DNA of 64,000 nucleotides, taken from positions 42,435 through 106,434 of the forward strand of contig PAIP01000059.1 in assembly GCA_002704915.1 (NCBI GenBank). The letters are read 5' to 3'. Source of the stretch: Parvularcula sp. (GTDB taxonomy: Bacteria; Pseudomonadota; Alphaproteobacteria; Caulobacterales; Parvularculaceae). Position 1 is the stretch's first letter; every line of letters begins with the position of its first letter. The notes under the pieces were generated by a model, which did not search any database, was not told the origin of the DNA, and saw nothing but the letters and a program-made list of their open reading frames with translations. Positions 8,955-32,271 of the stretch are shown here, in pieces. A program made the translations under genes and the position numbers.

Positions 8955-9454
8955 TGACCAAACTCATCGGCCTTTATCCCGGCACGTTCGATCCGTTGAC
9001 GCTCGGGCATGTGGACCTTGTGGAGCGGGCGGTGAAGCTTGTGGACGAGCTGATCATCGGCGTCGCCATCAACCGCGATAAAGGCCCGCTCTTTTCCCTC
9101 GAAGAGCGCGTCGCGATGGTCGAAAAGGAAATGGCGCGCATCTCCAAGGCGACAGGCACGCCCATCCGTGTCGTTCCCTTCGAAACGCTGCTGATGAAGT
9201 TTGCGGAAGAGGTGAAGGCGAACATCATCATTCGCGGCCTTCGCGCCGTCTCGGATTTCGAATATGAATTTCAGATGGTCGGCATGAACCAGGCCTTGAA
9301 TGACGAGATCGAGACCGTCTTTCTGATGGCCGATGCGCGCTATCAGTCCATCGCTTCGCGCCTCGTCAAAGAGATTGCGCGCCTCGACGGCGAGATCTCC
9401 TCCTTCGTGCCGGCCCATGTGGCCGAGGCGCTGAGGGCCAAGTTTTCAAAGTAA
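8954..9454 (+). CDS. coaD: Phosphopantetheine adenylyltransferase
   Basis: GLYPGTFDPLTLGHVDLVERAVKLVDELIIGVA; IIRGLRAVSDFEYEFQM. Confidence 0.95.
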   Translation: MTKLIGLYPGTFDPLTLGHVDLVERAVKLVDELIIGVAINRDKGPLFSLEERVAMVEKEMARISKATGTPIRVVPFETLLMKFAEEVKANIIIRGLRAVSDFEYEFQMVGMNQALNDEIETVFLMADARYQSIASRLVKEIARLDGEISSFVPAHVAEALRAKFSK

Positions 9455-9528
9455 CCGGTTCGCAATTTCGCCGCGGGCGCCTTATATGATGGCTCTCTGC
9501 CCGGGGCGGGTCTTGGCAAGGAGTTGAT

Positions 9529-10431
9529 ATGCGTTTTGGATCAATGAGTTGGGCAATGGCGGCGCTGGCCGCTGTGATGCTGTCGCCGGCTCTTGCGGAT
9601 GACGATGACGAGAACGCGCCCACGGCGCGGGAAATCGTCGAGAATGCGCCGGAAAGCGACTGGCGCGGCCTCGATCCTGAGAACACTTTATATATGGACC
9701 TGCCTGCGGGGACCGTGGTCATTGAGCTGCGCCCCGATTTTGCGCCGGGTCATGTGGAGCGCATCAAGACGCTGACCCGCCAGGGTTTTTATGACGGCCT
9801 CGCTTTCCATCGCGTGATCGAGGGCTTCATGGCCCAAGGCGGCGATCCGAAAGGGGATGGCACCGGCGGGTCCGATCTGCCCGACCTTGAAGCGGAATTC
9901 ACCCGCGACAGCACGGAAGTCGAAGGCTTCCGGGAGATCGGCCGCGATCGCATGGCGCCGCGGCTCGGCTATGTGGACGGCATGCCGACGGCGGCGGAGC
10001 CGGAGGGCCTGCGCGCCTTTCTGACCAATGGCCATGTGGATGTCTGGCCGGTGCATTGCCCCGGCGTCATGTCCATGGCGCGCGCCACGGACCCCGACAG
10101 CGCCAACAGCCAGTTCTTTTTGATGATCGGCGACAGCCGCCAGAATCTGGACCAGCGCTACACCGCCTGGGGCTGGATCGTCGATGGATATGAAGCGACG
10201 CGGCGTATTGTGCGCGGCGAGCCGCCTTCGCGGCCGACGCCGATCATCCGTATGCGCATCGAAGCCGACATCCCTGAGGCCGAGCGCGAGGACATCAAGG
10301 TTCTGAAAACCGACAGCCAGACTTTCACCGAGTATCTGAAGGCGGACGGTCAGCTTTCTGACACCGGCTTCCTGAAAGATATCTGCGACATCAAAGTGCC
10401 TGTGAAGGCGGAAGGAGACCTCGAACTATGA
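9529..10431 (+). CDS. Exported cyclophilin-type peptidyl-prolyl isomerase
   Basis: Signal peptide; GFYDGLAFHRVIEGFMAQGGDPKGDGTGGSDLPDLEAEF...SANSQFFLMIG. Confidence 0.9.
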   Translation: MRFGSMSWAMAALAAVMLSPALADDDDENAPTAREIVENAPESDWRGLDPENTLYMDLPAGTVVIELRPDFAPGHVERIKTLTRQGFYDGLAFHRVIEGFMAQGGDPKGDGTGGSDLPDLEAEFTRDSTEVEGFREIGRDRMAPRLGYVDGMPTAAEPEGLRAFLTNGHVDVWPVHCPGVMSMARATDPDSANSQFFLMIGDSRQNLDQRYTAWGWIVDGYEATRRIVRGEPPSRPTPIIRMRIEADIPEAEREDIKVLKTDSQTFTEYLKADGQLSDTGFLKDICDIKVPVKAEGDLEL

Positions 10432-10877
10432 GCGATAAACTCATTCTCACCCTCGATACAGGCGACGTCGTTATCGAAACATTTCCGGACAAGGCGCCGG
10501 GTCATGTGGAGCGCATCAAGGAGCTTGCCGACGAAGGCTTTTATGACGGCATCCCCTTGCACCGCGTGATTGACGGGTTCATGGCGCAGATGGGCTGTCC
10601 TCGCGGCGACGGCACGGGCGGATCGAAAAAGCCCGACCTCAAGGCCGAGTTCAACGATGTCAGCCACCAGCGCGGCGTCTGCTCCATGGCCCGCGCCCAG
10701 GATCCGAACAGCGCCAACAGCCAGTTTTTCATCGTTTTCGACGACGCCTCTTTCCTCGACGGCCAGTACACCGCCTGGGGCAAGGTCGTTGAAGGCATGG
10801 AGCATGTGGACGAAGCGAACCGCGGCGAGCCGCCCGCAAACCCGACCAAGATCGTGAAATTCCGTACCGCGGCTTAA
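10428..10877 (+). CDS. ppiB: Cytoplasmic cyclophilin-type peptidyl-prolyl isomerase
   Basis: GFYDGIPLHRVIDGFMAQMGCPRGDGTGGSKKPDLKAEF...SMARAQDPNSANSQFFIVFD. Confidence 0.92.
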   Translation: MSDKLILTLDTGDVVIETFPDKAPGHVERIKELADEGFYDGIPLHRVIDGFMAQMGCPRGDGTGGSKKPDLKAEFNDVSHQRGVCSMARAQDPNSANSQFFIVFDDASFLDGQYTAWGKVVEGMEHVDEANRGEPPANPTKIVKFRTAA

Positions 10878-10911
10878 GGAAACGGCAAGGAAATTTTCAC
10901 CTGCAACTGGC

Positions 10912-10940
10912 AAAAGGGCGCGAATCCATCGCGCCTTTTT
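10912..10940 (+). terminator. Rho-independent terminator
   Basis: GGCGCG-AATCCAT-CGCGCC followed by TTTTT. Confidence 0.75.
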
Positions 10941-10969
10941 CTTTGTTTATGTGAGCGACGCAAGCCCCC

Positions 10970-12190
10970 GTGACCCACAAGCCCAACATCGCCTATCTCA
11001 TGAACACCTATCCGCTGACGTCGACGACGTTCATCCGGCGGGAGATCGAGGCTCATGAGCGGCGGGGGTTGCGGGTCACGCGTTACGCGTTGCGGGGCCG
11101 GGACGGCGAACTTGTCGACCCGCTCGACATCGCGGAGATCGACCGCACCCATTACATTCTATCGGGCAATGCCGGCGGTCTTGTCAAAGCATTCTTCCGT
11201 GAGCTGATGACTAACATGGGAGGGTTGCTCAAGGCGCTCGGTCCCTGGCGGTCGCTGCTGAAACAAGCCCGGGGCGGGGTCATCCGGCATGTCGCCTATC
11301 TGATGGAGGCGTGTTATTTCCGCCAGCGCGCCGCGGCCGATCATATCGACCATGTTCATGTGCATTTCCTGACCAATTCGACGGCCGTCGCCATGCTTGC
11401 GCGGATCATGGGCGGGCCCACCTACAGCGCGACGGTCCATGGCCCCGATGAACTGGTGGATGCGCCGTTGCTCGATTTTCCCGCGAAGATCGAACACGCC
11501 TCTTTCATCGCGGCGATCACGCATTTCTGCAAATCGCAGCTCATCCGCTTTTCTTCGATTCAGGCGGCGGACAAGATCAAGATCATTCATTGCGGCCTCG
11601 ATCTCTCCGGATTTGAGGCGACGCCGCCGCCGGACAATCAAACGCTTGTCTGCGTCGGGCGCCTGTGCCCGCAAAAGGGACAGGCGCAATTGCCAGCCGC
11701 CGTCGCGGCGCTGAAAGACGAATTTCCGGATATGAAGCTCGTCCTGATAGGCGACGGCGAAAGCCGCGCGGTGATCGAGGCGGAGATCGCCCGGCTCGGC
11801 GTCGGCGACCGGATTGAGATCACCGGCTGGATGGAGAACGCAAAAGTCCGCGAAGTCGTGAAGAACGCCCGCGCCTTCCTGTTGCCGAGTTACGCCGAAG
11901 GCCTGCCCGTCGTCATTATGGAGGCGCTGGCGCTTGGCCGTCCCGTGATCTCAACCTATATCGCCGGCATTCCTGAACTCGTGGACGAAGGCTGCGGCTG
12001 GATCATCCCGGCCGGCGACGGCGAGGCCTTGGTCCGTGTCATGCGCGAGGCGCTGACCGCGTCGCCTGAAAACCTCCGCGATCTCGGCGCCGAGGGCCGT
12101 CGCCGTATCGAAGACCGGCATGATGTGGACAAGGAAGCGGAAAAGCTTGGGGCGCTGTTTGAAGATGTCGTGAAGCGCCGGAAGCTTTAA
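10970..12190 (+). CDS. Group 1 (GT4-type) glycosyltransferase, GTG start
   Basis: VCVGRLCPQKGQAQLPAAVAAL...LVLIGDGESRAVIEAEIARLGVGDRIEITGWMENAKVREVVKNARAFLLPSYAEGLPVVIMEALALGRPVI. Confidence 0.9.
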   Translation: MTHKPNIAYLMNTYPLTSTTFIRREIEAHERRGLRVTRYALRGRDGELVDPLDIAEIDRTHYILSGNAGGLVKAFFRELMTNMGGLLKALGPWRSLLKQARGGVIRHVAYLMEACYFRQRAAADHIDHVHVHFLTNSTAVAMLARIMGGPTYSATVHGPDELVDAPLLDFPAKIEHASFIAAITHFCKSQLIRFSSIQAADKIKIIHCGLDLSGFEATPPPDNQTLVCVGRLCPQKGQAQLPAAVAALKDEFPDMKLVLIGDGESRAVIEAEIARLGVGDRIEITGWMENAKVREVVKNARAFLLPSYAEGLPVVIMEALALGRPVISTYIAGIPELVDEGCGWIIPAGDGEALVRVMREALTASPENLRDLGAEGRRRIEDRHDVDKEAEKLGALFEDVVKRRKL

Positions 12191-14981: not shown

Positions 14982-15797
14982 CTAGGAGAAATAGGGCAGG
15001 TTGAGGCCATGGGCGATCATGGCGGCGCCGCCGGCAGCGGCGAGGGCGGGCCCGAACGGAATGGGCGTCTCCCGGCCGATATGGGCGCCGCGCAGCGCCG
15101 CGAGCCCCACGCCGATCAGCGCCATGATGGCGGCGAGGAAAACCACCGGCGGTAGAACCGGCCAGCCGAACCAGGCCCCGATGGCGCCAAGCAGCTTGGC
15201 GTCGCCCTGGCCCAGCCCCTCGATCCCGCGCAGGCGCAGGAAAATCATGTCGACGAGCCGGAAGGCCCCATAGCCGACGATCGCGCCGAGGATCGCTGCG
15301 CCAGGCGCGGCATTGAAAAGGTCGAGAGCGTTGGCCACGACGCCCAGGACCATGAGCGAAAGGGTCAGGACATCGGGCAGATAGCCGGTTTCCGCGTCGA
15401 TAGCGCCCAGTGCGATGAGATAGAGAAAAAAGACAAAAGCGCCCGCCCCCTCAAGGCTCAGCCCGAACAAGGCGAGTGCGATGATCCCGGCGGCCGCGCC
15501 GGCGACCTCCACCAGCGGATAGCGAAGGGAGATTGGCGCGCTGCAATCGGCGCACTTCCCGCCAAGCATGGCGTATCCCGCCAGCGGAATAAGATGGAGG
15601 CTGCGAATCGGCTTGCGGCATGACGGACAATAAGAGCGGGGCGACGCCAGATTTCCGCGCTTTTCTCCATCCACCAGCTTCCACAATACAGGGCCGCGAT
15701 AAATGACGACGTTGAGAAAGCTTCCCAGAACGGCGCCGAGCGCGGCGGCTGTGACGAAAAAGACCCAGTGAGGCGTCATCGCGCCGGCGCTGTCCAT
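14982..15797 (-). CDS. gspO: Prepilin peptidase, type II secretion
   Basis: GSFLNVVIYR; two CxxC pairs (CPSCRKPI, CADCSAPI); GAIDAETGYLPD and GQGDAKLLGAIGAWFGW aspartate motifs. Confidence 0.92.
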   Translation of the reverse strand: MDSAGAMTPHWVFFVTAAALGAVLGSFLNVVIYRGPVLWKLVDGEKRGNLASPRSYCPSCRKPIRSLHLIPLAGYAMLGGKCADCSAPISLRYPLVEVAGAAAGIIALALFGLSLEGAGAFVFFLYLIALGAIDAETGYLPDVLTLSLMVLGVVANALDLFNAAPGAAILGAIVGYGAFRLVDMIFLRLRGIEGLGQGDAKLLGAIGAWFGWPVLPPVVFLAAIMALIGVGLAALRGAHIGRETPIPFGPALAAAGGAAMIAHGLNLPYFS

Positions 15798-16002: not shown

Positions 16003-16126
16003 ATTGTCATCAATCTGAAACAAACGTGTCACTCGCCTGTCAAACGTCTGCTCTATCGGCACGGAGCAACGACGCGTGGGGCGTCGTCCTTTGTGCGTGA
16101 AACCTTTTCCTCCGGGGGTCTCTTCA

Positions 16127-18979
16127 ATGAGCCAAATCTCGAAATTCAAATCTATTCTTCTTGCGGGCGCCGCGCTGACAGTTGCAGCCTGTACGCAAGG
16201 CAGCGACATCGAATCGCCGGGCGTCACAAATCCCGGCACGCCCCCGACGGGCGGCGGCGGCGGTGGAGGCGGTGGAACCGTTTCCGGCGACACCTGTCCT
16301 TCCGGCTTCGCCGCCGGCGCGAATGTGGATCGCGCTTCCGGCCCCGATCAGGTTGTCTGCGACATCGCCGGCACCTATCTCGCAAATATTGCGCTTCCCT
16401 ATAAAGACGATGACGGCGACGGCGTGCCGGTTGCGTATCGCATTGCCGGCCGCGTCAATATCGGCGAGGACATCGGCGCAGACGGTTCGGCGGGCAATCC
16501 GGCGGTGCTCACCATTCAGCCGGGCGTCACCCTTTTCGGCGAGTCCGGCAGCGACTTCATGGTCGTCAACCGCGGTTCGCGTATTGAAGCCGACGGCACG
16601 GCAGATGCGCCCATCGTTTTCACCAGCCGCGCTGACCTTGAAGGCACGCAGTCCGATCCGGACAACGCCATCGGCGAGTGGGGCGGTCTTGTGATCCTCG
16701 GCCGCGCGCCGATCAACCGCTGCGAAGGCGGCGGCACGCCGGGCATGGCGGACTGCGAAAACTTCATCGAAGGCGTGACCGCGCCGGAAGCGCAATATGG
16801 CGGCGGCGTCGCAACGGACAATTCGGGCACGCTGCGCTATGTGCGCGTTCAATATGCGGGCTTCCCGCTGTCCTCGGGCAATGAGCTGAACGGCATCTCC
16901 TTCGGCGGCGTCGGCAGCGACACGGTCGTCGACTATGTGCAGGTTCACAACAACTCCGACGACGGCATCGAGATGTTCGGCGGCACGGTGAATCTGAAGC
17001 ACATCGTCCTCACAGGCAATGACGACGACTCCCTCGACACCGACAATGGCTGGAACGGCAAAGTGCAGTTCCTCGTCGTCAGCCAGATCGACGGCCGCGG
17101 CGACAATGGCTTCGAAATGTCATCCGCAGGCACGACCGTGTCGCCGGCGACGAACCCGACAATCGCGAACTTCACCATTGTCGGGTCGACAAAAGCCGCC
17201 GATGCGGGCAACGCCATTCGTCTGAACTCCGGCCATATCGGCCGCTTCCTCAACGGCGTCGTGCAGGATCAGGACGAGTGCTTCCGCTGGCAGGACGCCG
17301 GCAATGACAACGCCACCTATGACGGCATCGGCGTCGATCCGACCTTCAATTCCGTTCTCTTCGATTGCGGAACCGGCGGTCTGACCATCGACGATCCGGA
17401 AACGCCGGCCGCCGTTGCTTCGGTTGCGGCTGACGCCAACAACTCGGAAGACACAAGCTCCATCACCGGGAACTTCCAGGCCGGCGCCAAAGAGCTGCCG
17501 CCCATGGCGACGCCTTTTGCGGTTGAAACGCTCGATCCGTTCTTTGTGGAAGCCGATTATCTCGGCGCCTTCGGTCCGGAAGAAACGGAAACCAACAACT
17601 GGGCGACCGGCTGGACTTTTGGCCTGTTCGCCGATCCGGGCTGCCCGGACGGCACGTCCGATACGGGCAACACCATCAACGGCACGCGCGTTTGTCTCCT
17701 GACCGGCACGCTTGACGGAGATTCGGGCGCCTATACCGAGGTCAGCCTGACTCGCGGCAACTTCTTCGAAATCGACGGCCGCGTTGATGTGGGCGTCGAT
17801 ATCGGCAATGACGGCCTCGAGCCGGATGGCGAGTCGATCGTGCTCAATATCGAGCCGGGTGTTTCGATCTTCGGCAACTCCGGCTCCGACTTCCTGGTCG
17901 TCAATCGCGGTTCGCAGATCTTCGCGAACGGCACGCGTCAGAACCCGGTTGTCTTCACCTCTGAAGCGGACCTTCAGGATGCGGTTGACCCTTCCCTGCG
18001 TCTCGACTCCATTGGTGAGTGGGGTGGTCTTGTGATCCTCGGCCGTGCGCCGATCAATCGCTGCGAAGGCGGCGGCACGCCGGGCGCAGCGGATTGCGAG
18101 AACTTCATCGAAGGCGTGACCGCGCCGGAAGCCCAGTATGGCGGCGGGGTCGCAGGCGATAACTCCGGCATGCTGATGTATACGCTGGTCAAATTCGCCG
18201 GCTTCCCGCTCTCCTCGGGCAACGAGCTGAACGGCATCTCCTTCGGCGGCGTCGGCTCGGGCACCACGGTTGAGTATGTCCAGGTTCACAACAACTCCGA
18301 CGACGGCATCGAGATGTTCGGCGGCACGGTCGATCTGAAACACATCGTTCTGACCGGCAATGACGACGACTCGCTCGACACCGACAATGGCTGGAACGGC
18401 AACGCTCAGTTCGTGATCGTCAAACAGCGCGACGGCCGTGGCGACAACGGTTTCGAGATGTCGTCAGCCGGCACCGCGGTGTCGCCGGCGACCAATCCGA
18501 CGATCGCCAACTTCACGATCTTCGGCACGACCAAAATGACCGATCCGGGCAACGCCATCCGCATCAATAGCGGTCATATCGGACGGTTCATCAACGGCGT
18601 GATCACCGATGAGGATGAGTGCTTCCGCTGGCAGGATGCGGGCGACGGCAACGCCACCTATGACGGCCTCGGCGTCGATCCGACTTTCAACAATTCGCTG
18701 TTCGATTGCGGAACGGGCGGTCTGACCATCGACTCGCCGGAAACGCCGGCGGCGGTCGCCTCCATCGGCGCCGACGCGTCCAATACGACGGCCGTCGACG
18801 TCAACCTGATCGACGACTTCATCAATGATACGGCGGCGGCGGGGCGCACGGCCTTCACCGACCTCCCGACCAATGTCGATCCGTTCTTCGAAGACGTGTC
18901 CTATATCGGCGCCGTCGAAGATCAGAACGACGACTGGTGGGACGAGTGGAGCTGCGGTCTCGCTGCGGACGATTGCTAA
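16127..18979 (+). CDS. Large lipoprotein with internal tandem duplication, probable beta-helix surface protein
   Basis: Signal and lipobox FKSILLAGAALTVAAC; Gly9 linker; two copies of a block beginning GEWGGLVILGRAPINRCEGGGTPG..., about 447 aa apart. Confidence 0.8.
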   Translation: MSQISKFKSILLAGAALTVAACTQGSDIESPGVTNPGTPPTGGGGGGGGGTVSGDTCPSGFAAGANVDRASGPDQVVCDIAGTYLANIALPYKDDDGDGVPVAYRIAGRVNIGEDIGADGSAGNPAVLTIQPGVTLFGESGSDFMVVNRGSRIEADGTADAPIVFTSRADLEGTQSDPDNAIGEWGGLVILGRAPINRCEGGGTPGMADCENFIEGVTAPEAQYGGGVATDNSGTLRYVRVQYAGFPLSSGNELNGISFGGVGSDTVVDYVQVHNNSDDGIEMFGGTVNLKHIVLTGNDDDSLDTDNGWNGKVQFLVVSQIDGRGDNGFEMSSAGTTVSPATNPTIANFTIVGSTKAADAGNAIRLNSGHIGRFLNGVVQDQDECFRWQDAGNDNATYDGIGVDPTFNSVLFDCGTGGLTIDDPETPAAVASVAADANNSEDTSSITGNFQAGAKELPPMATPFAVETLDPFFVEADYLGAFGPEETETNNWATGWTFGLFADPGCPDGTSDTGNTINGTRVCLLTGTLDGDSGAYTEVSLTRGNFFEIDGRVDVGVDIGNDGLEPDGESIVLNIEPGVSIFGNSGSDFLVVNRGSQIFANGTRQNPVVFTSEADLQDAVDPSLRLDSIGEWGGLVILGRAPINRCEGGGTPGAADCENFIEGVTAPEAQYGGGVAGDNSGMLMYTLVKFAGFPLSSGNELNGISFGGVGSGTTVEYVQVHNNSDDGIEMFGGTVDLKHIVLTGNDDDSLDTDNGWNGNAQFVIVKQRDGRGDNGFEMSSAGTAVSPATNPTIANFTIFGTTKMTDPGNAIRINSGHIGRFINGVITDEDECFRWQDAGDGNATYDGLGVDPTFNNSLFDCGTGGLTIDSPETPAAVASIGADASNTTAVDVNLIDDFINDTAAAGRTAFTDLPTNVDPFFEDVSYIGAVEDQNDDWWDEWSCGLAADDC

Positions 18980-18994
18980 GGACGAGTGATAGTG

Positions 18995-19020
18995 CGGCGC
19001 GCTCCTTAAGGAGCGCGCCG
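18995..19020. terminator. Perfect 26-bp palindrome, intercistronic hairpin or weak terminator/attenuator
   Basis: CGGCGCGCTCCTT|AAGGAGCGCGCCG between lipoprotein and TonB receptor genes; no strong T-tract. Confidence 0.6.
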
Positions 19021-19061
19021 AGCTTCCTTTCTCACGAAATCAGATCAGGGTAATTATTGTC

Positions 19062-21719
19062 ATGAAGCCGTATCAAACATTCGGGAGCGCGCTGCTCGCA
19101 TCGACGATGCTCATCGCTCCCTCTGCGTTCGCGCAGGACGCAGGGACGGAAGGGTCGGGAACCGGCAGCAGCCTTTCTTCTTTCCAGCCCACCTATTCCG
19201 ACGAGATCGTGGTCCGCGGCCGCAACATTCCGGAGCCGCAGCGCGCAACCTCTCAAGTCGCAACCTTCTTGAACGCAGACGATTTGCAACGCACAGGCGA
19301 CGACAACGCCGCGCTGGCGCTGACCCGCCTCAGCGGTCTCAGCGTCGTCGGCGGCAAGTTCGCCTATGTCCGCGGTCTCGGCGACCGTTATTCTTCCGCG
19401 CGCCTGAACGGGTCTCCTCTGCCGAGCCCGGAGCCGTTGAAGCGTACCGTGCCGCTGGACCTGTTCCCGTCCAATATTCTTGCAGGCGCTACGGTGCAGA
19501 AAACCTTTTCGCCGAATTATCCGGGCGAATTTGGCGGCGGCATCATCGACCTTCAGACCCTGCGCAAGCCGGACGAGAACTTCCTTAACGTCAAGCTTGG
19601 CATCGGCGCCAATCTCGTCACGACGGCTCGCGAAGGCCTTTACGTCAATGGCGGCGATCTCGACTGGCTTGGCTATGATGACGGCATTCGCAGCATGCCG
19701 GATGAGCTGCAGGCGGTTGTCAATACTGATCAGGAGCTGTCTGACCTGGACCCGGCGGTTCAGGAAGCGGTTGGCGAAAGCCTCGTCAATTCGCCTCTTT
19801 CCGTTATTCAGGAAGGCAGCCTGGGGCCGAATTTCGAAGGCTCTGTCGATGGCGGCAAATATTGGGATATGGATAGCGGAGCGACGTTCTCCATCCTGGG
19901 CGTTGTCGGCTACAAGCAGGACTGGACGACGGAACAAGCCGTGCGCCAGCTCGCCTCTGAAGAGCGGGTCGGAATCAACTCGACCCAAACAGAAACCGCG
20001 CTTGATGTCACTGTTAATGGGCTGCTGACTGCAGCTCTTGAGATGGATCGTCACGCCTTCTCGTTGACCGGTCTTTATATCCATTCGACCCGAAAGGAAG
20101 CGCAGGTACAGCAAGGTTTCAACTTTAACGCTGACGGCGCTGGCGGTTTTGTCACCGAGGCGAACTCCTGGCTCGAGCGCGCCTTGATGATGGGGCAGGC
20201 GGCGGGCGAACACGATCTGAGCGATCAGTTTGCGGTCAACTGGCGTGGCGCATTTGCGCGGTCTACCCGCGATGCGCCTTATGAACGCACCCTCGAAAAC
20301 AGGTCGGCACCCATCGACGAAAACGACAATGTCGTTGGTCCGCCATCGATTGTTTTCAACACGCGTCACAATATCAATTTCTCGGAGCTGACCGACGACA
20401 CCTGGAGTGGCGGCGCTGAACTCCTCTGGTATGTGCCGGTTTCCGGCGCCCGCGAAGCGACGATCTCCGCAGGCTACGAATACAGCGATAATGACCGCGA
20501 GTTCATTTCCGATCCGTTCAACTTCACGTTGAACACGTCGATCCCGATCGATGTGGCTCAAGCCCGCATCGATTTCGCCTATTCGCCGGATAATATCGAT
20601 CCGAACCGGTTCAAGCTGATCGACACCAATACCCAAGGCGTCAACTCCTATAATGGCGAGTTGACGACCCATGCGGGCTACGCCCAGATCGATGCGGAGC
20701 TGATTTCCACGATCCGCACCACGGCGGGCGTTCGCTATGAGACCGCCGATCAGTCCGTGGACGTCTTTGACCGGTTCAACGACTCCAGCGCGTTCGACAC
20801 ATCCTTGTCGAACGATTACTGGCTGCCGTCGGCGATGGTGACCTGGAACTTCACGGATAACATGCAGTTCCGCGTTGGTTACTCTCATACCATCGCGCGC
20901 CCGCAATTCCGCGAGCTTGCCGCCTCGCAGTTCACCGATCCTGAGACGGACCGGATTTATTTCGGCAACTCCAATCTGACGGATAGCAAGTTCAGAAACT
21001 ATGACGCTCGTTATGAATTTTATCTCGGGCGCAACCAGTTCCTGACACTGGCTGGTTTCTATAAGACCATCGACAAGCCGATTGAAGAAATCCAATTCAC
21101 GACGACCGACTTTTCGTTCCAGTCGAGCTTCATCAACTCGCCCAAAGCCGAGCTCCTTGGCGGCGAGTTCGAATATCGCACACGCTTCTTCCTGCCGGGC
21201 GATGGCTGGCTTGCCGATCAGGAATGGTTGTTCTCGGTCAACTACACCTACACGGAATCGGAAATCGTCGTCGGGGCTGGCGACACGATTACCGAACGCG
21301 ACGGCGATATCGTGGCGGCATCGTCCTACGGCCTCGACGGATCTCCGATGGTCGGCACGCCGAAACACATTGTGAACACCCAATTCGGTTGGGAAGGCGA
21401 GAATACGCAGTTCACCATCCTCGGGGGGTGGGTCTCCGAGCGTCTTCTGGCGCGCGGCGAAGCCCTGACAAAGGCGAACCGTCTCCTCGATGTCTATGAA
21501 AAACCGGGTTTCCAGCTTGACGCGGTTTTCCGCCACAGGGTGAACATCCACGGCACGGATTTCACGATCGGGCTGGCTGGGCGCAATCTTCTTGCTACCA
21601 AGCATATCGAGGAGCAACGGGGCGTTGACGACCCGGATCGGGCGCCCGACGGCATCGTCGACTTTAATACCTATGAGCGTGGGCGCAGTCTTTCGGCCAG
21701 CCTCACGGCGCATTTCTAG
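19062..21719 (+). CDS. TonB-dependent receptor
   Basis: Signal peptide; plug motif YVRGLGDRYSSARLNGSPLPSPEPLKRTVPLDLFPSNILAGATVQKTFSPNYPGEFGGGIIDLQT; C-terminal Phe (LTAHF). Confidence 0.9.
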   Translation: MKPYQTFGSALLASTMLIAPSAFAQDAGTEGSGTGSSLSSFQPTYSDEIVVRGRNIPEPQRATSQVATFLNADDLQRTGDDNAALALTRLSGLSVVGGKFAYVRGLGDRYSSARLNGSPLPSPEPLKRTVPLDLFPSNILAGATVQKTFSPNYPGEFGGGIIDLQTLRKPDENFLNVKLGIGANLVTTAREGLYVNGGDLDWLGYDDGIRSMPDELQAVVNTDQELSDLDPAVQEAVGESLVNSPLSVIQEGSLGPNFEGSVDGGKYWDMDSGATFSILGVVGYKQDWTTEQAVRQLASEERVGINSTQTETALDVTVNGLLTAALEMDRHAFSLTGLYIHSTRKEAQVQQGFNFNADGAGGFVTEANSWLERALMMGQAAGEHDLSDQFAVNWRGAFARSTRDAPYERTLENRSAPIDENDNVVGPPSIVFNTRHNINFSELTDDTWSGGAELLWYVPVSGAREATISAGYEYSDNDREFISDPFNFTLNTSIPIDVAQARIDFAYSPDNIDPNRFKLIDTNTQGVNSYNGELTTHAGYAQIDAELISTIRTTAGVRYETADQSVDVFDRFNDSSAFDTSLSNDYWLPSAMVTWNFTDNMQFRVGYSHTIARPQFRELAASQFTDPETDRIYFGNSNLTDSKFRNYDARYEFYLGRNQFLTLAGFYKTIDKPIEEIQFTTTDFSFQSSFINSPKAELLGGEFEYRTRFFLPGDGWLADQEWLFSVNYTYTESEIVVGAGDTITERDGDIVAASSYGLDGSPMVGTPKHIVNTQFGWEGENTQFTILGGWVSERLLARGEALTKANRLLDVYEKPGFQLDAVFRHRVNIHGTDFTIGLAGRNLLATKHIEEQRGVDDPDRAPDGIVDFNTYERGRSLSASLTAHF

Positions 21720-21970: not shown

Positions 21971-22909
21971 TTGCGTTATGAAAAGCAGGTGGGCCGAAAA
22001 GGCGACAGACCGGGTAAGGCGTTAAGCAAGGTGGCGGGTCTTGAACTTCGAAGAGGGTTTGGCGCGCCCGCATTTTTGCGGGGCGAACGGGCCCGCGCGC
22101 TCGGCCCCCGGATCGTCGAATGGGCGCTGATCGCCGTGATCGCCTTTTTGCTGGCCCGCACAGCCATCGCCTTCTTCGCGCCCCTGCCTGTTCCCGCCGG
22201 CGATCAACTTGCAGCTCTGCCCGCGACGAAATCCGGCGGCGCGACGCCTCTTGAGGGACGTAATCCGTTTCCGGCCGCCGTGGTTGATGCGGCGCCCGTC
22301 GAGACCGGCCCCGATCTCGCCGAGACAGCGCTCGATCTGACGCTGACCGGCGTCTGGCCCGGTGATGACAATAGCTCCGCCATCATTCAGCGTCCGGACG
22401 GAAGGCAAAAACGCTTTGCCGTCGGCGATGAAATCGTTTCCGGCGTCCGGCTTGTGGCGGTTTATTCCGATCAGGTCGTAATCGAGCAAAACGGCGTGCG
22501 CGAGTCCCTGCGGTTTGAATCCAAAATCACCGCCCCGCGCGCAATCCAAAATACAAACCGGCCGGCAACTGAAAATGCGCGCGATGCTGCGCCCGAAAAC
22601 AAGATAGAGAATGCGCCGGCAGGGAGCGATCTCAGCGGCGCCTTCCGGCTGGCGCCAGGCGTCGATCCCGCCGGCAAGCCCGCGATCCTTCTTTATGCCG
22701 GTCGAGACCGGGCAACATTCGAAGCGACGGGATTGCGCGACGGCGATGTCTTACGCCTCGTGAACGGCTCGGCGCCGCCGAACGAACCGAACGAACTCGC
22801 TGCGATGATGAGCCAATTCATGAAATCGGGCGCTGCGACCATTGTGATCGAACGCAATGGCGCCATGCAAAAAATCGAGCTGTCGCGAGACGGATCAGGG
22901 GATGAGTAA
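21971..22909 (+). CDS. gspC: T2SS protein GspC (TTG or other alternative start)
   Basis: Single TM near N-terminus, homology region LTLTGVWPGDDNSSAIIQRPDGRQKRFAVGDEI, C-terminal PDZ-like region; directly upstream of gspD. Confidence 0.82.
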   Translation: MRYEKQVGRKGDRPGKALSKVAGLELRRGFGAPAFLRGERARALGPRIVEWALIAVIAFLLARTAIAFFAPLPVPAGDQLAALPATKSGGATPLEGRNPFPAAVVDAAPVETGPDLAETALDLTLTGVWPGDDNSSAIIQRPDGRQKRFAVGDEIVSGVRLVAVYSDQVVIEQNGVRESLRFESKITAPRAIQNTNRPATENARDAAPENKIENAPAGSDLSGAFRLAPGVDPAGKPAILLYAGRDRATFEATGLRDGDVLRLVNGSAPPNEPNELAAMMSQFMKSGAATIVIERNGAMQKIELSRDGSGDE

Positions 22910-24924
22910 TGTTGTTGTGTCGTAAAATCCTTGCCGCTTGCAGCGGCGTCGTCTTGTGGGCCGCCGCGCCGCATGCCCTCGCGCAGGAGAATTGCGGCGA
23001 AGCCTTGAATTATGAAGATGCCGACATCCGGGCGGTCATTGACGAAATCGCCATTCGCACCGGCCGCACCTTTCTGCTCGATCCGGCGGTGCAGGGGCGC
23101 GTCACGGTAAAATCGCCGCCCAATGGCGGTCTCTGCGCCGACGAGGCCTGGGAGTTGTTCCAGGCGATGCTGAGGGTCAATGATTTCGTGGCGACCCCGG
23201 TGGGCGATGGAAAATACCGCATCGTTCCCTTACAGGAAGCGGCGCGCACGGCGGGCCCTGTGGGCGAGGGCGTGGGCTCGGACCTCACCACGCAGATTGT
23301 GCGTCTCAACTATGTGGACGCGCGCGAAGCGGCGGCGAACCTGGCGCAGATCATCGGGAATAATGGCGTGGTCAGCCCGGTGCGGTCAGGCAACGCCGTC
23401 ATCATCGTCGACACCGCCGACAATGTGGAGCGCATTCGTCAGGTTCTCAGACAACTCGACCGCGACATGACCGTCTATCGCACCATCGCGTTGGAGCACG
23501 CTTCCGCAACCGAGATTGCGCGGCTTGTGCGCGAACTGGCGCAGGAAATGACCGAAGAGGGCGGCGGTCGCGCCGCCTATAGCGTCGTTGCGGTTGAGGC
23601 CAGCAATTCCCTTTTGATCCGCGCCGAGCCGGCCCTCATGCGCCGTCTTGAACTCGTCATCGGCGAGCTCGACCAATATGGGGAGGCCTCTTCGGAACTC
23701 ACCGTCGTGCATCTGAACCACGCCAACGCCGAAGAGCTTGCGCCCTTGCTTGAGGAAGTCGCAAATAATACCCGTAGCAGTGGCTCCGGCGAAGGAACCG
23801 TCTCCAGTAATCGCGCCACGATTTCCTTCCACAAGGCGACCAACTCCATCATCATCAATGGCGACGCCAATATTCAGCGAACGCTTCAGAATGTGATCGC
23901 CGAGCTCGATGTGCGGCGCCCGCAGGTGCAGGTGGAAGCCATTGTTGTCGAGATTTCGGACACGGCGGCGCGCGAGCTTGGCGTTCAGTATTTTCTGACC
24001 GGCGACAATATTCCGTTCTCGGCGACCAATTATTCCGCTGCGCCGAACATTTTTCCGGCCGCCGGCGCGGCGCTGCTCAACAGCTCTCGTTACAGCGGCA
24101 TTTTCGAAACGCCGACAACCACCGTTGTCGATGACGGCGTTCAGACTCAAAGCGAGACCGAGGGTATTCAGTCGGAGCTCGCCAGACAGGCGCTGCAATC
24201 CTTGCTAGGCGTTCAGGGCCTTGCGCTTGGCGGCGGTTTCGAATTTGGCGATGGAAACATTTTCGGCGGCATTCTGACGGCGCTCAAGAACGACGCGGAT
24301 TCGAATGTCCTTTCGACGCCGTCTGTCGTGACCCTCAACAATGAAACAGCGCGTCTGCAGGTCGGCCAGGAGATCCCGATCACCACAGGTGAAGCGATCG
24401 GAGATGACTTCACCAACGCTTTCCGCACCATATCCCGCGAACAGGTGGGCGTCATTCTGGAAGTGACGCCGCAGATCAATGACGGCGACACGGTGACGAT
24501 GCAGATCGTGCAGGAAATCTCCAGCATCGCCGGGCCCATCAACACCTCCTCCACCGATCTGATCACGAACAAGCGTGAGATTACGACCACGGCGCTGGTT
24601 GATGACGGCGACATCCTCGTCATCGGCGGGCTTATCGACGACACGCGCGAGGAGCGCTCGGAGAAGGTGCCGCTGTTGGGTGATATTCCCGGCGTCGGAA
24701 ACCTGTTCAGATCCTCCGCCAAAGAGCGCCGGCGTCAGAATCTGATGGTCTTCATCCGCCCGACTATCATTCGCGACAAGGAAACGGCGAACGCCGCGAC
24801 AAAACGCAAATTCGATTACATGCGCGCGCGCGAGCTGTTGCGGAACGGCGAGCCTGTTTCCGAAATGGAGCGTCTGATCAACGATGTGACCGGCGTCGCG
24901 CCGCCGGATGCGCAGCCGCAATAG
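22909..24924 (+). CDS. gspD: T2SS secretin GspD
   Basis: N-domain repeats; VNAIVVEISD-type motif (VQVEAIVVEISDTAARELGVQY); VPLLGDIPGVGNLFR secretin signature. Confidence 0.95.
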   Translation: MLLCRKILAACSGVVLWAAAPHALAQENCGEALNYEDADIRAVIDEIAIRTGRTFLLDPAVQGRVTVKSPPNGGLCADEAWELFQAMLRVNDFVATPVGDGKYRIVPLQEAARTAGPVGEGVGSDLTTQIVRLNYVDAREAAANLAQIIGNNGVVSPVRSGNAVIIVDTADNVERIRQVLRQLDRDMTVYRTIALEHASATEIARLVRELAQEMTEEGGGRAAYSVVAVEASNSLLIRAEPALMRRLELVIGELDQYGEASSELTVVHLNHANAEELAPLLEEVANNTRSSGSGEGTVSSNRATISFHKATNSIIINGDANIQRTLQNVIAELDVRRPQVQVEAIVVEISDTAARELGVQYFLTGDNIPFSATNYSAAPNIFPAAGAALLNSSRYSGIFETPTTTVVDDGVQTQSETEGIQSELARQALQSLLGVQGLALGGGFEFGDGNIFGGILTALKNDADSNVLSTPSVVTLNNETARLQVGQEIPITTGEAIGDDFTNAFRTISREQVGVILEVTPQINDGDTVTMQIVQEISSIAGPINTSSTDLITNKREITTTALVDDGDILVIGGLIDDTREERSEKVPLLGDIPGVGNLFRSSAKERRRQNLMVFIRPTIIRDKETANAATKRKFDYMRARELLRNGEPVSEMERLINDVTGVAPPDAQPQ

Positions 24925-24938
24925 GCGCGTGAGAGCTT

Positions 24939-26447
24939 ATGAGTGAAACAACCGCAAAAGCGGCGACACGGCTCGCCTATGCTTTCGCCAAGGAACGCGG
25001 CCTCATCGTGCTGGACGCCGCGTCGAGGCCGGTTGTGCTCGGCGCGCGCGGTAAGGCGCCGGACCCTTGGGCGGTCATCGAGGCGCGGCGCGCCATGGGC
25101 GCGCCGGTGGCTGTGGACGTCATGCCGCTCGACGCTTTCGAAAGGCGGCTTTCGGAAATCTATTCGGTCGAGGGGATTTCCACTGACGATCTCGGTCTCG
25201 ACGATGATGACGCGGATCTCGCCTCGCTGGCCGAAGGCCTGCCCAAAACCGCGGACCTCCTCGACAGCGAAAATGATGCGCCGGTGATCCGCTTGATCAA
25301 TGCGCTCATCGCCGAGGCGGTGAAAGTAAAAGCGTCCGACATTCACATCGAACCTTATGAAAAGGCGCTGTCCGTCCGCTTGCGTATAGACGGCGTTTTG
25401 CGCGAAATCCTGTCGCTGCCCTCGCGGATGACGCCGGTGCTGACCTCGCGTGTCAAAGTCATGGCGCGTCTCGACATCGCCGAGCGGCGCGTGCCTCAGG
25501 ACGGACGCATTTCTCTGGCGCTGGGCGGCAAGACGGTCGACGTGCGCGTCTCGACCTTGCCAGCGCGCTTTGGCGAGCGCGTCGTCATGCGTATTCTCGA
25601 CAAGGATGAGGCGCGGCTGGATCTCGACGGGCTCGGCATGCCGAAGGAAATCCTGACGCGCTTCAAACATGCGCTGGCGCGGCCCAACGGCATCATTCTT
25701 GTCACCGGCCCAACAGGCTCCGGCAAGACGACGACGCTTTACGGCGCCCTCACGCTGCTCAATGAACCGAGCCGCAATATTCTCACGGTCGAAGACCCGG
25801 TTGAATACGCCATCGAGGGCGTCGGCCAGACCCAGATCAATCCGAAAGTCGGGATGACCTTTGCGACGGGCCTGCGCGCGATCCTGCGTCAGGACCCGGA
25901 TATCGTCATGGTGGGTGAGATCCGCGATGTGGAAACAGCCGAGATCGCGGTGCAGGCCTCGCTCACCGGGCACCTTGTCCTGTCCACTGTGCATACCAAC
26001 TCCGCCGCCGGCGCCATCACCCGACTGCGCGATATGGGCGTCGAGGCGTTTCTGCTCTCCTCGACCATCGCGGCGGTGATGGCGCAGCGGCTTGTGCGGC
26101 GCCTGTGTCCGTCCTGCAAACAGCCTTACGCGCCGGATGCGGCAACGCGGCGCCTGCTCGGCGTCGGTCCGCGGGAAGAGGTGACGCTCTACCATCCCGG
26201 CGCATGCGGTCGCTGCAACCACACTGGCTATGAAGGGCGCATCGGCGTTTACGAATTGATCGTGGTCGATGAAAAGCTCAAACGCCTCATCCATGACGGC
26301 GCCAATGAACAGGATATTTCCTCCTACGCTTTTGCGCATGGGGACACTTTGCAGCAATCGGGCCTGCGCCATGCGCGCGCCGGCGTCACCTCGCTGGAAG
26401 AGGTCTTGAGGGTCGTGCATCAGGAGGAAGACGATGCCGGCCTTTGA
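24939..26447 (+). CDS. gspE: T2SS ATPase GspE
   Basis: Walker A GPTGSGKTTTLYGAL; ASDIHIEPYEKALSVRLRIDGVL; tetracysteine CPSCK...CGRCN. Confidence 0.96.
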   Translation: MSETTAKAATRLAYAFAKERGLIVLDAASRPVVLGARGKAPDPWAVIEARRAMGAPVAVDVMPLDAFERRLSEIYSVEGISTDDLGLDDDDADLASLAEGLPKTADLLDSENDAPVIRLINALIAEAVKVKASDIHIEPYEKALSVRLRIDGVLREILSLPSRMTPVLTSRVKVMARLDIAERRVPQDGRISLALGGKTVDVRVSTLPARFGERVVMRILDKDEARLDLDGLGMPKEILTRFKHALARPNGIILVTGPTGSGKTTTLYGALTLLNEPSRNILTVEDPVEYAIEGVGQTQINPKVGMTFATGLRAILRQDPDIVMVGEIRDVETAEIAVQASLTGHLVLSTVHTNSAAGAITRLRDMGVEAFLLSSTIAAVMAQRLVRRLCPSCKQPYAPDAATRRLLGVGPREEVTLYHPGACGRCNHTGYEGRIGVYELIVVDEKLKRLIHDGANEQDISSYAFAHGDTLQQSGLRHARAGVTSLEEVLRVVHQEEDDAGL

Positions 26448-27648
26448 ATATGAAGCCGTCGATTTTGGCGGGCGGACAAAAAAAGGCGTTCTTTCCGCCG
26501 ACAGCCCGCGCCAGGCGCGACAGGAATTAAGACGCATGAAGCTGACGCCGTTGCGCCTTTCCGCGCCGCGGTCGGAACGTAAAGCGGGCGCTTTCGGCTC
26601 GGACAAGCCGCGCGTCAAACCCGCGCAACTGGTGATGATGACGCGGCAATTATCGGCGTTGATCGGCGCGGGCACGCCCTTGGAAGAAGCCCTCAACGCC
26701 GTGGCGGTGCAATCGGAATCCGGGCCGGCGCGCACGCGTCTTCTTTCGGTGCGCGAGCGGGTAATGGAGGGCTGGCGGTTCGCCGATGCGCTGGCCGAAG
26801 ATGAAAAGTCCTTCCCGCCGCTCTATCGCGCCGTCATCGCTGCGGGCGAGACCTCCGGCGATCTCGGCGGTGTGCTCGACCGCCTCGCCTCCATGCTGGA
26901 GAAAAACCGGGCCATCAAGAACAAGGCGGTTGCCTCGCTCATCTATCCGGCGGCGCTGATGATGATCGCCGGCGGCGTCGTCACTGCGCTGATGGTGTTC
27001 GTCGTTCCAAAGATCATCGACCAGTTCAACAGCTTCAACGCCGAGTTGCCTTTTCTCACGAAGGTCGTTGTCGGGCTTTCCAACTGGACTGTGAGCTATG
27101 GGCTGTTTGCGCTTCTTTTTATTGTTATTTTGGGCGTCGCCTTCTGGCGCGCCATGAAGGAGCCGCGCTTCAAGCTCGCCGTGGACCGCTTCATGCTGCG
27201 CGTTCCGGTGCTGGGCCGGCTTTCCCGGGGCGTTGATGGGGCCCGTTTCGCCCGCACGCTGGCGACCCTTTTTTCCGGCGGCGCGCCCTTGCTGGACAGT
27301 CTTGTGGGGGCGCAAAAGACGGTTTCAAACAGCTATATCCGCTCGCGGCTTGACCGGACGGTGACGATGGTGGGAGAGGGAGCCTCGCTCGCCGCCGCCA
27401 TCAAGCGGGCGGATGTTTTGCCGCCCATGCTCACCCATATGATTGCGGCGGGCGAACGGGCGGGCGCCCTGTCGGAGCTGCTCGACAAGGCGGCGCTGCA
27501 GCTCGAAGAAGAATTCGATACGGCGTCGACGGTGGCCCTGAGGCTTTTGGAGCCGGCCATCATCGTCGCCATGGGCGGCGCGGTGCTCGTCATCGTGCTG
27601 TCAATTTTGCTGCCGATCCTGCGCATCAACACGCTGGCTGTCGGCTAA
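26434..27648 (+). CDS. gspF: T2SS inner membrane protein GspF
   Basis: MPAFEYEAVDFGGRTKKGVLSADSPRQARQELR; MTRQLSALIGAGTPLEEAL. Confidence 0.95.
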   Translation: MPAFEYEAVDFGGRTKKGVLSADSPRQARQELRRMKLTPLRLSAPRSERKAGAFGSDKPRVKPAQLVMMTRQLSALIGAGTPLEEALNAVAVQSESGPARTRLLSVRERVMEGWRFADALAEDEKSFPPLYRAVIAAGETSGDLGGVLDRLASMLEKNRAIKNKAVASLIYPAALMMIAGGVVTALMVFVVPKIIDQFNSFNAELPFLTKVVVGLSNWTVSYGLFALLFIVILGVAFWRAMKEPRFKLAVDRFMLRVPVLGRLSRGVDGARFARTLATLFSGGAPLLDSLVGAQKTVSNSYIRSRLDRTVTMVGEGASLAAAIKRADVLPPMLTHMIAAGERAGALSELLDKAALQLEEEFDTASTVALRLLEPAIIVAMGGAVLVIVLSILLPILRINTLAVG

Positions 27649-27662
27649 ACGGGAGACGCTAA

Positions 27663-28118
27663 ATGAAGAAGACCATGAAACGCCGTCAAAGAGGCTTTTC
27701 GCTTGTTGAATTGCTCGTAGCGCTCGCCATTCTCGCGCTAATTTCTGCGATTGTCGTGATCAATGTGCTGCCGGCGCGCGACAAAGCGGCGGTCGATACG
27801 GCGAAGATCGATATCGGCGTTATCGAAAGCGCGCTCGATCAATACCGTCTCGACATGATGAACTATCCGAATTCGCAGCAGGGCTTGCGGGCGCTGATCA
27901 CTGTTCCCGCCGATGCGCGCAACGCGTCGAACTACCGCCCAGGCGGTTATCTGCGCGGCGAAGTCCCGACCGATCCCTGGGGCAATCCTTATCAGTATCG
28001 TTTTCCGGGCGAGCGCGGCGGCGCCTATGATCTCTATTCCCTTGGCGCCGATGGCGAGCCCGGCGGCGAGGGGCTGAACGCCGATATCGGCAACTGGTCG
28101 GATGACGAGCGGCTGTAA
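27663..28118 (+). CDS. gspG: T2SS major pseudopilin GspG
   Basis: RGFSLVELLVALAILALISAIVV; PTDPWGNPYQYRFPGERGGAYDLYSLGADG. Confidence 0.95.
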   Translation: MKKTMKRRQRGFSLVELLVALAILALISAIVVINVLPARDKAAVDTAKIDIGVIESALDQYRLDMMNYPNSQQGLRALITVPADARNASNYRPGGYLRGEVPTDPWGNPYQYRFPGERGGAYDLYSLGADGEPGGEGLNADIGNWSDDERL

Positions 28119-28650
28119 GCATAAGTCACGCCGGATCTCGCGGCGACAGGCGCAGCGCGGTCTCTCGCTTGTGGAACTGCTTGTGGTCATGGCGCTCGCC
28201 GCCATGGTCGCCGGCGTCGTCGTCATCAATGCGCCCCCGGGCCGAACGGATGCGCGCCGGGCCGCCGAAGCTCTTGCCGCGCGGCTCGATTTTGCGGCGC
28301 AGGATGCGGTCACGCGCGGCGCCGTTCTTGGCATGCGCCTCGATGACGAAGGGTATGCTTTCTTTCGTTATCAGCGCGGCGAGTGGAAGCCGGAAACAAC
28401 GGCGCAGATGAAAGCGGATAGTTTTCCGCCGGAATTTTCCGTCGATGTTTCGCGCGAGGCGCCGGCGAAAAGAAATGAGCCGGAGGAAAAACGCCGGGAG
28501 ACAGAAACTGTCATCCGGCCGGATCTGCGGTTCATGCCGACGGGCGAAACAACGCCGGTGACGGTGATGTTGCAGGATCGGCGCGAGATTTGGCGCGTGA
28601 CGCTGGACGGCGCGGGCCATGTGGAAGTGAGCAATGTCGATGGCGCGTAA
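28102..28650 (+). CDS. gspH: T2SS minor pseudopilin GspH
   Basis: RGLSLVELLVVMALAAMVAGVVV; operon position. Confidence 0.88.
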   Translation: MTSGCKHKSRRISRRQAQRGLSLVELLVVMALAAMVAGVVVINAPPGRTDARRAAEALAARLDFAAQDAVTRGAVLGMRLDDEGYAFFRYQRGEWKPETTAQMKADSFPPEFSVDVSREAPAKRNEPEEKRRETETVIRPDLRFMPTGETTPVTVMLQDRREIWRVTLDGAGHVEVSNVDGA

Positions 28651-29008
28651 CAACCAGAAGGGCGTGACCCTTGTCGAGACACTGGTGGCGCTCGCCGTTA
28701 TGGGCCTCGTTATCGGCGCGCTCCTGGTGCTGATGGGCCAGAATTCGCGTTTCGCCGCCTCCATGCGCGAGCGCACGCTCGCCGCCATCGCAGCAGACAA
28801 TCTCATGGTCGAGGCGATGGTGCTGCGCGAGGCGACGGAAATCGGCGAAACCGAAGGCGAGGTGACGGTGGGCGGCGCTGCGCTTCGTTATCGTCGCACG
28901 ATTGTCGAAACCGGCGTCGACAACATTGTGCGTATCGAGATCGATGTTCTGTCGCCGGGTGGGGAGCAGCGCCTTGCGCATGCCGTCTCCATGCGGAGGC
29001 CGTCATGA
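28634..29008 (+). CDS. gspI: T2SS minor pseudopilin GspI
   Basis: KGVTLVETLVALAVMGLVIGALLVL; operon position. Confidence 0.87.
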   Translation: MSMARNNQKGVTLVETLVALAVMGLVIGALLVLMGQNSRFAASMRERTLAAIAADNLMVEAMVLREATEIGETEGEVTVGGAALRYRRTIVETGVDNIVRIEIDVLSPGGEQRLAHAVSMRRPS

Positions 29009-29658
29009 ACGCCCACGCACAAAAAGGCCTGACCCTGCCGGAGGTGCTGATCGCGCTGCTCGTGTTTTCAGCGATCGCCGCGACCGCTGTTTACGCCCTG
29101 CGGCTTGGCGTTGACAGCCGCGACCAGCTTGCGGTTGTCGATGACGATCTGAAATCCTTCCAGATTGCGCGCACGCTCATCAAGGAAGATCTGGCGCAGA
29201 TAACTTCGCGCACCGTGCGCGATGAGTTCGGCGACGGCCGGCCTGCGGCCTTTATGGGCAATCTTCAGAATTTCGCGTCGCGCCGTGAGGAGGACGAGCG
29301 CGTGCTCGCCTCTTTCGTGCGGGCGGGCTGGATCAATCCGGGGGCGGAGGAACCGCGCAGCGCCCTTCAATATGTGGAATATGTGTTTCGCGACGGGGTG
29401 CTCCTGCGCCGCAGCCGCGCCTATCTCGACGAGGCCTCCGGCGCAGATGCTGACGAGCGCGTCTTGTTCGCCAACCTTGTGGATGCGCAGGCCGCTTTTT
29501 TGATCGGCGAGCAGCGCGGCGAGCTGGAATGGTCGGATATCTGGCCGGTGTCGGGCAGGGGCTCGGCGCCGCAGGCCCTATCCATTACCCTTGACCGCGA
29601 AGGCCGAGAGCCGGTGGAGCAGCTTTTCTGGATCGCCCCCGTGGAGGCGCAGTCATGA
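29005..29658 (+). CDS. gspJ: T2SS minor pseudopilin GspJ
   Basis: KGLTLPEVLIALLVFSAIAATAVYALRLG; 4-nt overlaps both sides. Confidence 0.87.
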   Translation: MNAHAQKGLTLPEVLIALLVFSAIAATAVYALRLGVDSRDQLAVVDDDLKSFQIARTLIKEDLAQITSRTVRDEFGDGRPAAFMGNLQNFASRREEDERVLASFVRAGWINPGAEEPRSALQYVEYVFRDGVLLRRSRAYLDEASGADADERVLFANLVDAQAAFLIGEQRGELEWSDIWPVSGRGSAPQALSITLDREGREPVEQLFWIAPVEAQS

Positions 29659-31816: not shown

Positions 31817-32271
31817 CCTGGTGGACTGATCTTTCGCAGCGCGAGCGCCTGATGATCCTCATCGCCGGCGCGCTTGCGGCTGTGCTTTTCGTTTCGCTTG
31901 CCATTGTGCGGCCCTTCGCGGATTTGCGCTCAGACGCCGCCCGCAAGGCGGCCGCAGCCCGAGACGGCTATGAACTGACCGCTGCTGCGGCGGCTGTCGC
32001 CGGCGTCTCGGATACGACAGCCCCGCAGGACGGCGCGCCATTGCGGCAGGCGGTGCTTCAGTCTGCGCGAGCCGCGGGCATTGAAGTCGTGCGCATCGGC
32101 GCGGAAAGCGACGGCCAGCTAGAAATTCAGGCCGCGCCTGTCAATGGCGACGTGTTTTTTGAATGGCTGGCGCAGGTGCAAGGAAATTACGGCGCACGGG
32201 TCGCCTTTGCGGATATCGCCCGCGGCGAGGACGGCATGGTGACGCCGCAAGTTCTGGTGTTGGAGCGGTAA
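31813..32271 (+). CDS. gspM: T2SS protein GspM
   Basis: WWTDLSQRERLMILIAGALAAVLF; operon position. Confidence 0.85.
   Translation: MTWWTDLSQRERLMILIAGALAAVLFVSLAIVRPFADLRSDAARKAAAARDGYELTAAAAAVAGVSDTTAPQDGAPLRQAVLQSARAAGIEVVRIGAESDGQLEIQAAPVNGDVFFEWLAQVQGNYGARVAFADIARGEDGMVTPQVLVLER

Follow-up and report, generated by a model that had tools for sequence, protein, structure and literature searches.

In the window, that is, the whole 64,000-nucleotide stretch of Parvularcula sp. DNA that was analysed, a large lipoprotein gene and a TonB-dependent receptor (TBDR) gene lie on the same strand and are flanked by gspO and gspC (table 1). ORF and Pfam readings confirm this layout as the initial annotation had described it, including the Gly9 stretch of the lipoprotein and the YVRGLGDRYSS type of the receptor. 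Chance or artefact as the origin of the duplication and of the pairing was ruled out by orthologues in 41 of 60 relatives and by the near-universal receptor neighbour (see below). Two further ORFs of the window were recorded: one of 164 aa (33044-33538, +), which overlaps the end of gspN and has no Pfam/NCBIfam match, and one of 871 aa (40443-43058, -), an unusual transporter fusion of an SBP_bac_5 solute-binding domain with a BPD_transp_1 permease. One relative (G003:C25:419469-419741) retains just a 95-aa lipoprotein remnant at a distance of ~1.6 kb from gspD, to all appearances a locus copy that has decayed.

Table 1. Features of the lipoprotein-receptor locus and its flanks, in coordinates of the window.
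Feature	Position	Strand	Basis or remark
gspO prepilin peptidase	14982-15797	-	Peptidase_A24; upstream flank, outside the pair
Candidate tandem Pho box	16004-16043	+	Four 7-mers, 11-bp spacing: TTGTCAT CAAT CTGAAAC AAAC GTGTCAC TCGC CTGTCAA
ElpS-family lipoprotein gene, two-unit form, 950 aa	16127-18979	+	ORF, orthologues, AlphaFold2
Lipid-modified Cys22 of lipobox VAAC	16190-16192	+	Direct sequence reading; lipidation predicted
Gly9 flexible linker, residues 42-50	16250-16276	+	Sequence; pLDDT <50 over residues 1-49
Unit 1, predicted beta-helix, about residues 57-503	16295-17635	+	Half comparison, AlphaFold2
Unit 2, predicted beta-helix, about residues 505-950	17639-18976	+	Half comparison, AlphaFold2
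Hairpin CGGCGCGCTCC-TTAA-GGAGCGCGCCG between lipoprotein and receptor genes	18995-19020	+	Stem-loop search
TonB-dependent receptor, CC_0171-type, 885 aa	19062-21719	+	Pfam, AlphaFold2, Foldseek
gspC-gspN type II secretion cluster	21971-33047	+	Downstream flank; adjoins the pair almost only in Alphaproteobacteria
gspC	21971-22909	+	Downstream of the TBDR
gspD	22909-24924	+	Downstream of the TBDR
gspN	32163-33047	+	End of the gsp cluster

In the lipoprotein, the VAAC lipobox is followed by CTQGSDIESPGVTNPGTPPT and then by the nine glycines. Both Cys22 and the S30-P31-G32 motif that follows it in Alphaproteobacteria occur without exception in the 21 orthologues, and the glycine linker adjoins the position equivalent to the release cleavage of Caulobacter ElpS (before Asn38, 18 residues after Cys20; PMC2996285). 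The AlphaFold2 model (pLDDT 90.0, pTM 0.87) has residues 1-49 disordered, followed by beta-rich units that read as beta-helices. The lipobox and the disordered residues would correspond to the lipidated N-terminus and the flexible tether of the ElpS pair. As a whole, the protein is predicted to fold into a double beta-helix on a tether, with no solved relative. In detail, no solved homologue was found by sequence or profile search, no family of Pfam or NCBIfam, and no enzyme family, scored above cut-off, and Foldseek returned only weak beta-helix matches, for example with GH55 and PL6 enzymes.

The internal duplication noticed in the initial annotation is evident from the identity of the two halves (67% in protein and 70% in DNA). 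In a tree of 110 halves and 8 single-unit forms, the H1/H2 label changes 25 times against 1 expected and the own halves of 16 proteins are sisters, which rules out one ancient internal duplication. The halves are often more alike within one protein than across clades, and the number of units per protein ranges from 1 to 5. The halves have been re-duplicated or homogenised repeatedly.

The receptor carries the motif YVRGLGDRYSSARLNG, and both its Plug and its TonB_dep_Rec_b-barrel domains exceed the Pfam cut-off, as in the TBDR class. Its AlphaFold2 model (pLDDT 86.8, pTM 0.85) has clear Foldseek matches, the best of which are TBDRs such as PiuA, FecA, and PqqU. The gap between the two genes holds a hairpin, which is a conserved property of the pair: z scores from mononucleotide shuffles fall below -2 in 47 of 53 lipoprotein-receptor gaps versus 30 of 126 other co-directional gaps (Fisher P = 3e-16, a value that overstates independence because the loci are related by descent). 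Through the hairpin, the cell probably makes more lipoprotein than receptor.

A profile of the 21 orthologues led to 80 named loci. The receptor adjoins the lipoprotein gene in 73 of the 74 scorable ones, always on the same strand, that is, in 30/30 alphaproteobacterial, 32/32 gammaproteobacterial, 7/7 Bacteroidota, and 4/4 Verrucomicrobiota loci, the last with the gene order reversed. The sole scorable locus without a receptor neighbour belongs to one bdellovibrionote (0/1). This near-invariant adjacency supports the functional pairing that the initial annotation had proposed. The distribution of gsp genes is different: a distance of 11 kb or less was seen in 20/29 alphaproteobacterial and 1/3 Verrucomicrobiota loci, but in none of the 30 gammaproteobacterial and 7 Bacteroidota ones. 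The pair stands without an adjacent type II secretion system (T2SS) in 9/29 loci of Alphaproteobacteria, 30/30 of Gammaproteobacteria, and 7/7 of Bacteroidota. GspD is absent genome-wide despite the pair in Phycosocius-type genomes (G038, G046, and G054), in G053, in Asticcacaulis currens, in an Erythrobacter MAG, and in seven Bacteroidota. Most gammaproteobacterial hosts have a T2SS elsewhere in the genome, and for that reason it may still help. The initial annotation had named co-occurrence with gsp loci as a check of its reading, and a pair found mostly in genomes lacking the T2SS as a refutation; across the phyla the pair usually stands without adjacent gsp genes, and the table of lipoprotein against T2SS in the 60 relatives (37/4/15/4) gives no significant co-occurrence (Fisher P = 0.25). 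The constant partner of the lipoprotein is the receptor, not the T2SS.

These distributions bear on the reading of the initial annotation, in which the adjacent T2SS would bring the lipoprotein, as its substrate, to the cell surface in the manner of pullulanase, for joint action with the receptor. The surface type of the lipoprotein is supported. As for the route, ElpS had been named as a T2SS-exported precedent, and the published work concludes the reverse: ElpS remains accessible to proteinase K in a gspC-N deletion, and only its release depends on the T2SS (PMC2996285). Klebsiella pullulanase PulA, a T2SS-linked lipoprotein, does reach the surface through the T2SS, unlike ElpS (PMC2996285). 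T2SS display was rejected as the main model on this exposure without gspC-N and on the hosts that lack GspD. The SPG motif after the Cys was likewise considered as a T2SS signal and ruled out, as the T2SS-less Phycosocius (L020) and Asticcacaulis (L096) keep it. A closer link with the T2SS keeps some room because ElpS release is T2SS-dependent and ElpS overexpression is toxic in a T2SS mutant (PMC2996285), and the gsp proximity in most alphaproteobacterial loci is in its favour. On balance, we consider transport by the T2SS unlikely.

Proteobacterial members of the family are mostly lipoproteins. The Bacteroidota homologues were rejected as such: their sampled N-termini show no lipobox by eye, and in 6/7 the T9SS sorting domain TIGR04183 scores above cut-off at the C-terminal end. 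They are therefore also bound for the surface or the outside, by another route. As judged from these predicted signals, the export route varies while the outside destination and the receptor neighbour stay. A search for Slam (DUF560) in the window's genome gave one marginal match (22.1 bits vs a cut-off of 22; C61:6670-7383), located on the same contig ~51 kb before the lipoprotein gene, and Slam is absent from the Caulobacter control.

The regulatory region of the lipoprotein gene points to phosphate control. The best Pho-box 18-mer, GTGTCACTCGCCTGTCAA at 16026-16043, lies 83 nt before the ATG and scores 21.0 out of 25.2, a value reached by 0/50 shuffles. The whole 4.5-Mb genome, which encodes PhoB, has only six exact matches to TGTCAN6TGTCA, this one included. 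The Pho box is kept upstream of elpS in alpha- and gammaproteobacteria, with a mean best score of 18.9 at 82 proteobacterial elpS loci, against an average of 15.2 for the 717 regions upstream of other genes (P = 4.6e-37, a guide only, as the loci are related by descent and independence is overstated). The receptor gene itself has no such box upstream: a score of 19 was reached in 0/61 regions.

Genes of phosphate metabolism and of TonB energisation are found around the pair in several groups. phoBR and/or pst genes lie within 10 kb in 15-16 of the 80 named loci; for instance, phoBR and pst stand beside the pair in Arsukibacterium, and pst in Kordiimonas. In many gammaproteobacteria exbB-exbB-exbD-tonB follows directly downstream, and the order in Alteromonas is phoB-phoR-PBP-2OG oxygenase-elpS-TBDR-DUF3450-exbB-exbB-exbD-tonB. 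Because this energy cluster adjoins the pair, it can be argued that the pair serves active transport. The Pho box of elpS, the phoBR, pst, and exbBD-tonB neighbours, and the conserved intercistronic hairpin together point to phosphorus acquisition. Nutrient capture, as proposed in the initial annotation, is supported, and phosphorus is the nutrient that the evidence points to where that annotation had left it open.

Some other traits of phosphate regulation were observed in the window's genome. A phoR-phoU-phoB cluster without pst genes between lies at positions 8189-11396 of a separate stretch (L117, G000:C68:106000-122000). Neither PstS (PF12849) nor PstB scored above cut-off anywhere in the genome, which is Pho-regulated yet apparently without a Pst transporter. 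Among the relatives G000-G027, 15 have only the lipoprotein, 2 both, 6 only PstS, and 5 neither, so that within the genus a genome with the lipoprotein tends to lack PstS and vice versa (Fisher P = 0.03, with no correction for descent or genome incompleteness). On the minus strand, a run of four Pho-box half-sites spaced at 11 bp (L107, G000:C34:69115-69152) precedes a membrane protein that is ExbB/MotA-like by eye and is not a known pst gene, and an exact Pho-box pair (L111, G000:C75:12766-12781) lies upstream of a second, Oar-like TBDR.

Our preferred explanation, to which we give a probability of roughly 0.6, is that the pair consists of a PhoB-controlled surface capture lipoprotein serving the adjacent receptor for phosphorus compounds, with the T2SS as a companion. 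As the pair spans several phyla, usually without a neighbouring T2SS, a phosphate-scavenging unit is likelier than a T2SS cargo. The computed elements of this model are the gene structure, the Pho box, the hairpin, the conserved pairing, the pho/pst/exbBD-tonB neighbourhoods, and the predicted fold; starvation induction, surface exposure without the T2SS, and T2SS-dependent release were demonstrated in Caulobacter. On phosphate exhaustion, PhoB would bind the tandem Pho box and switch on the lipoprotein gene, and the receptor gene would follow behind the hairpin, probably with far more lipoprotein than receptor being made. The lipoprotein would be lipidated, reach the outer leaflet without the T2SS, and hang there by its disordered Gly-rich tether. 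The twin beta-helices would capture a ligand, which we infer to be phosphorus-bearing, and pass it, presumably by physical contact, to the adjacent receptor, which would import it at the expense of the proton-motive force. The neighbouring T2SS, which in Caulobacter belongs, like TBDRs, to the PhoB regulon (PMC11208175), would secrete hydrolases and probably also a tether-clipping protease, leading to lipoprotein release.

An improbable alternative is that the lipoprotein is a shed exoprotein, that is, a beta-helix lyase, a phosphatase activator, or a matrix protein, which acts independently of the receptor and shares only its regulation. The weak fold matches with GH55 and PL6 enzymes would fit, as would the polygalacturonase-like binding suggested by Lidbury et al. 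(PMC8115612); moreover, cells release ElpS, and alkaline phosphatase activity rises when it is overexpressed (PMC2996285). However, ElpS itself has no phosphatase activity (PMC2996285), no Pfam/NCBIfam enzyme family was matched, and the receptor remains adjacent over several phyla and export routes.

It is very unlikely that the receptor helps to move the lipoprotein outwards, with the TonB-energised receptor exporting or docking it and the same pair then forming an uptake complex: Oar, without which Myxococcus does not secrete PopC (PMC6434023), is a precedent for a TBDR as exporter, and such a role would explain the T2SS-independent exposure, the universal pairing, and the dedicated exbBD-tonB genes of gammaproteobacteria, with Slam-type translocons marginal in the window's genome and absent from Caulobacter, but 6/7 Bacteroidota homologues have a T9SS signal yet retain the receptor neighbour, and ElpS is still made without CC_0171, although its location there was not reported (PMC2996285). 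If true, it would be a receptor-driven, T2SS-independent surface route for beta-helix lipoproteins in Proteobacteria.

The proposed phosphorus-capture pair touches on two open questions, namely, the way in which most Proteobacteria bring surface lipoproteins to the outer leaflet and the passage of phosphorus across the outer membrane of porin-poor aquatic bacteria. Being kept across phyla under differing export routes (as a lipoprotein, by T9SS, next to a T2SS or not), it is a direct test case for the two. A tempting reading is corrected as well: the neighbouring T2SS is not what places the lipoprotein on the surface. Naming the lipoprotein family would aid annotation, because it has no Pfam/NCBIfam model and 14 of the 15 listed plasmid records call it a "hypothetical protein".

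The locus represents, in a two-unit form, the Caulobacter ElpS/CC_0170-CC_0171 pair, an arrangement known since 2010. Le Blastier et al. (2010) placed CC_0170 (ElpS) and the TBDR CC_0171 immediately before gspC-N in Caulobacter crescentus and reported this arrangement also for Xanthomonas campestris, Sphingomonas alaskensis, and Hyphomonas neptunium (PMC2996285). The identity with ElpS was set by gene layout (Sphingopyxis L101/L102 and Phenylobacterium L080) and by the published description. The order of lipoprotein gene, TBDR gene, and gspC-N is found in the window, and the two pairs share the lipoprotein and, as predicted from the Pho box, the link with starvation. ElpS is induced by phosphate starvation, surface-anchored, and released after the cleavage before Asn38; the receptor gene was reported to be constitutive in Caulobacter, and its deletion left ElpS production intact (PMC2996285, data not shown there), both of which count against our preferred explanation. 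At ~50 kDa, Caulobacter ElpS fits one unit, whereas the form of the window has two units in 950 aa.

In Flavobacterium johnsoniae, the Pi-inducible lipoproteins FI, FII, and FIII (PUSIII and PUSIV, with TBDTs) show 31-36% identity to ElpS and lie beside TBDTs or phoBR, similarly to the receptor neighbour in the window; FI and FII, beside TBDTs, are strongly inducible, with FI exceeding every other exoprotein in abundance (PMC8115612). They differ in belonging to the Bacteroidota, which have no T2SS here and most of whose sampled homologues use a T9SS sorting domain. The SusCD-like arrangement suggested in the initial annotation holds as an analogy, not as homology. As in SusCD/PusCD, a surface lipoprotein and a TonB-dependent transporter are encoded together, and the likeness is one of logic only: the window lipoprotein has no SusD Pfam match and an all-beta model unlike the SusD fold, and the receptor has only Plug and barrel, without Pfam CarboxypepD_reg, with siderophore-type receptors rather than SusC as best Foldseek matches. 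Beyond the 2010 description (PMC2996285), the Pho box, the hairpin, the TonB linkage, and the multi-phylum range of the pair are new.
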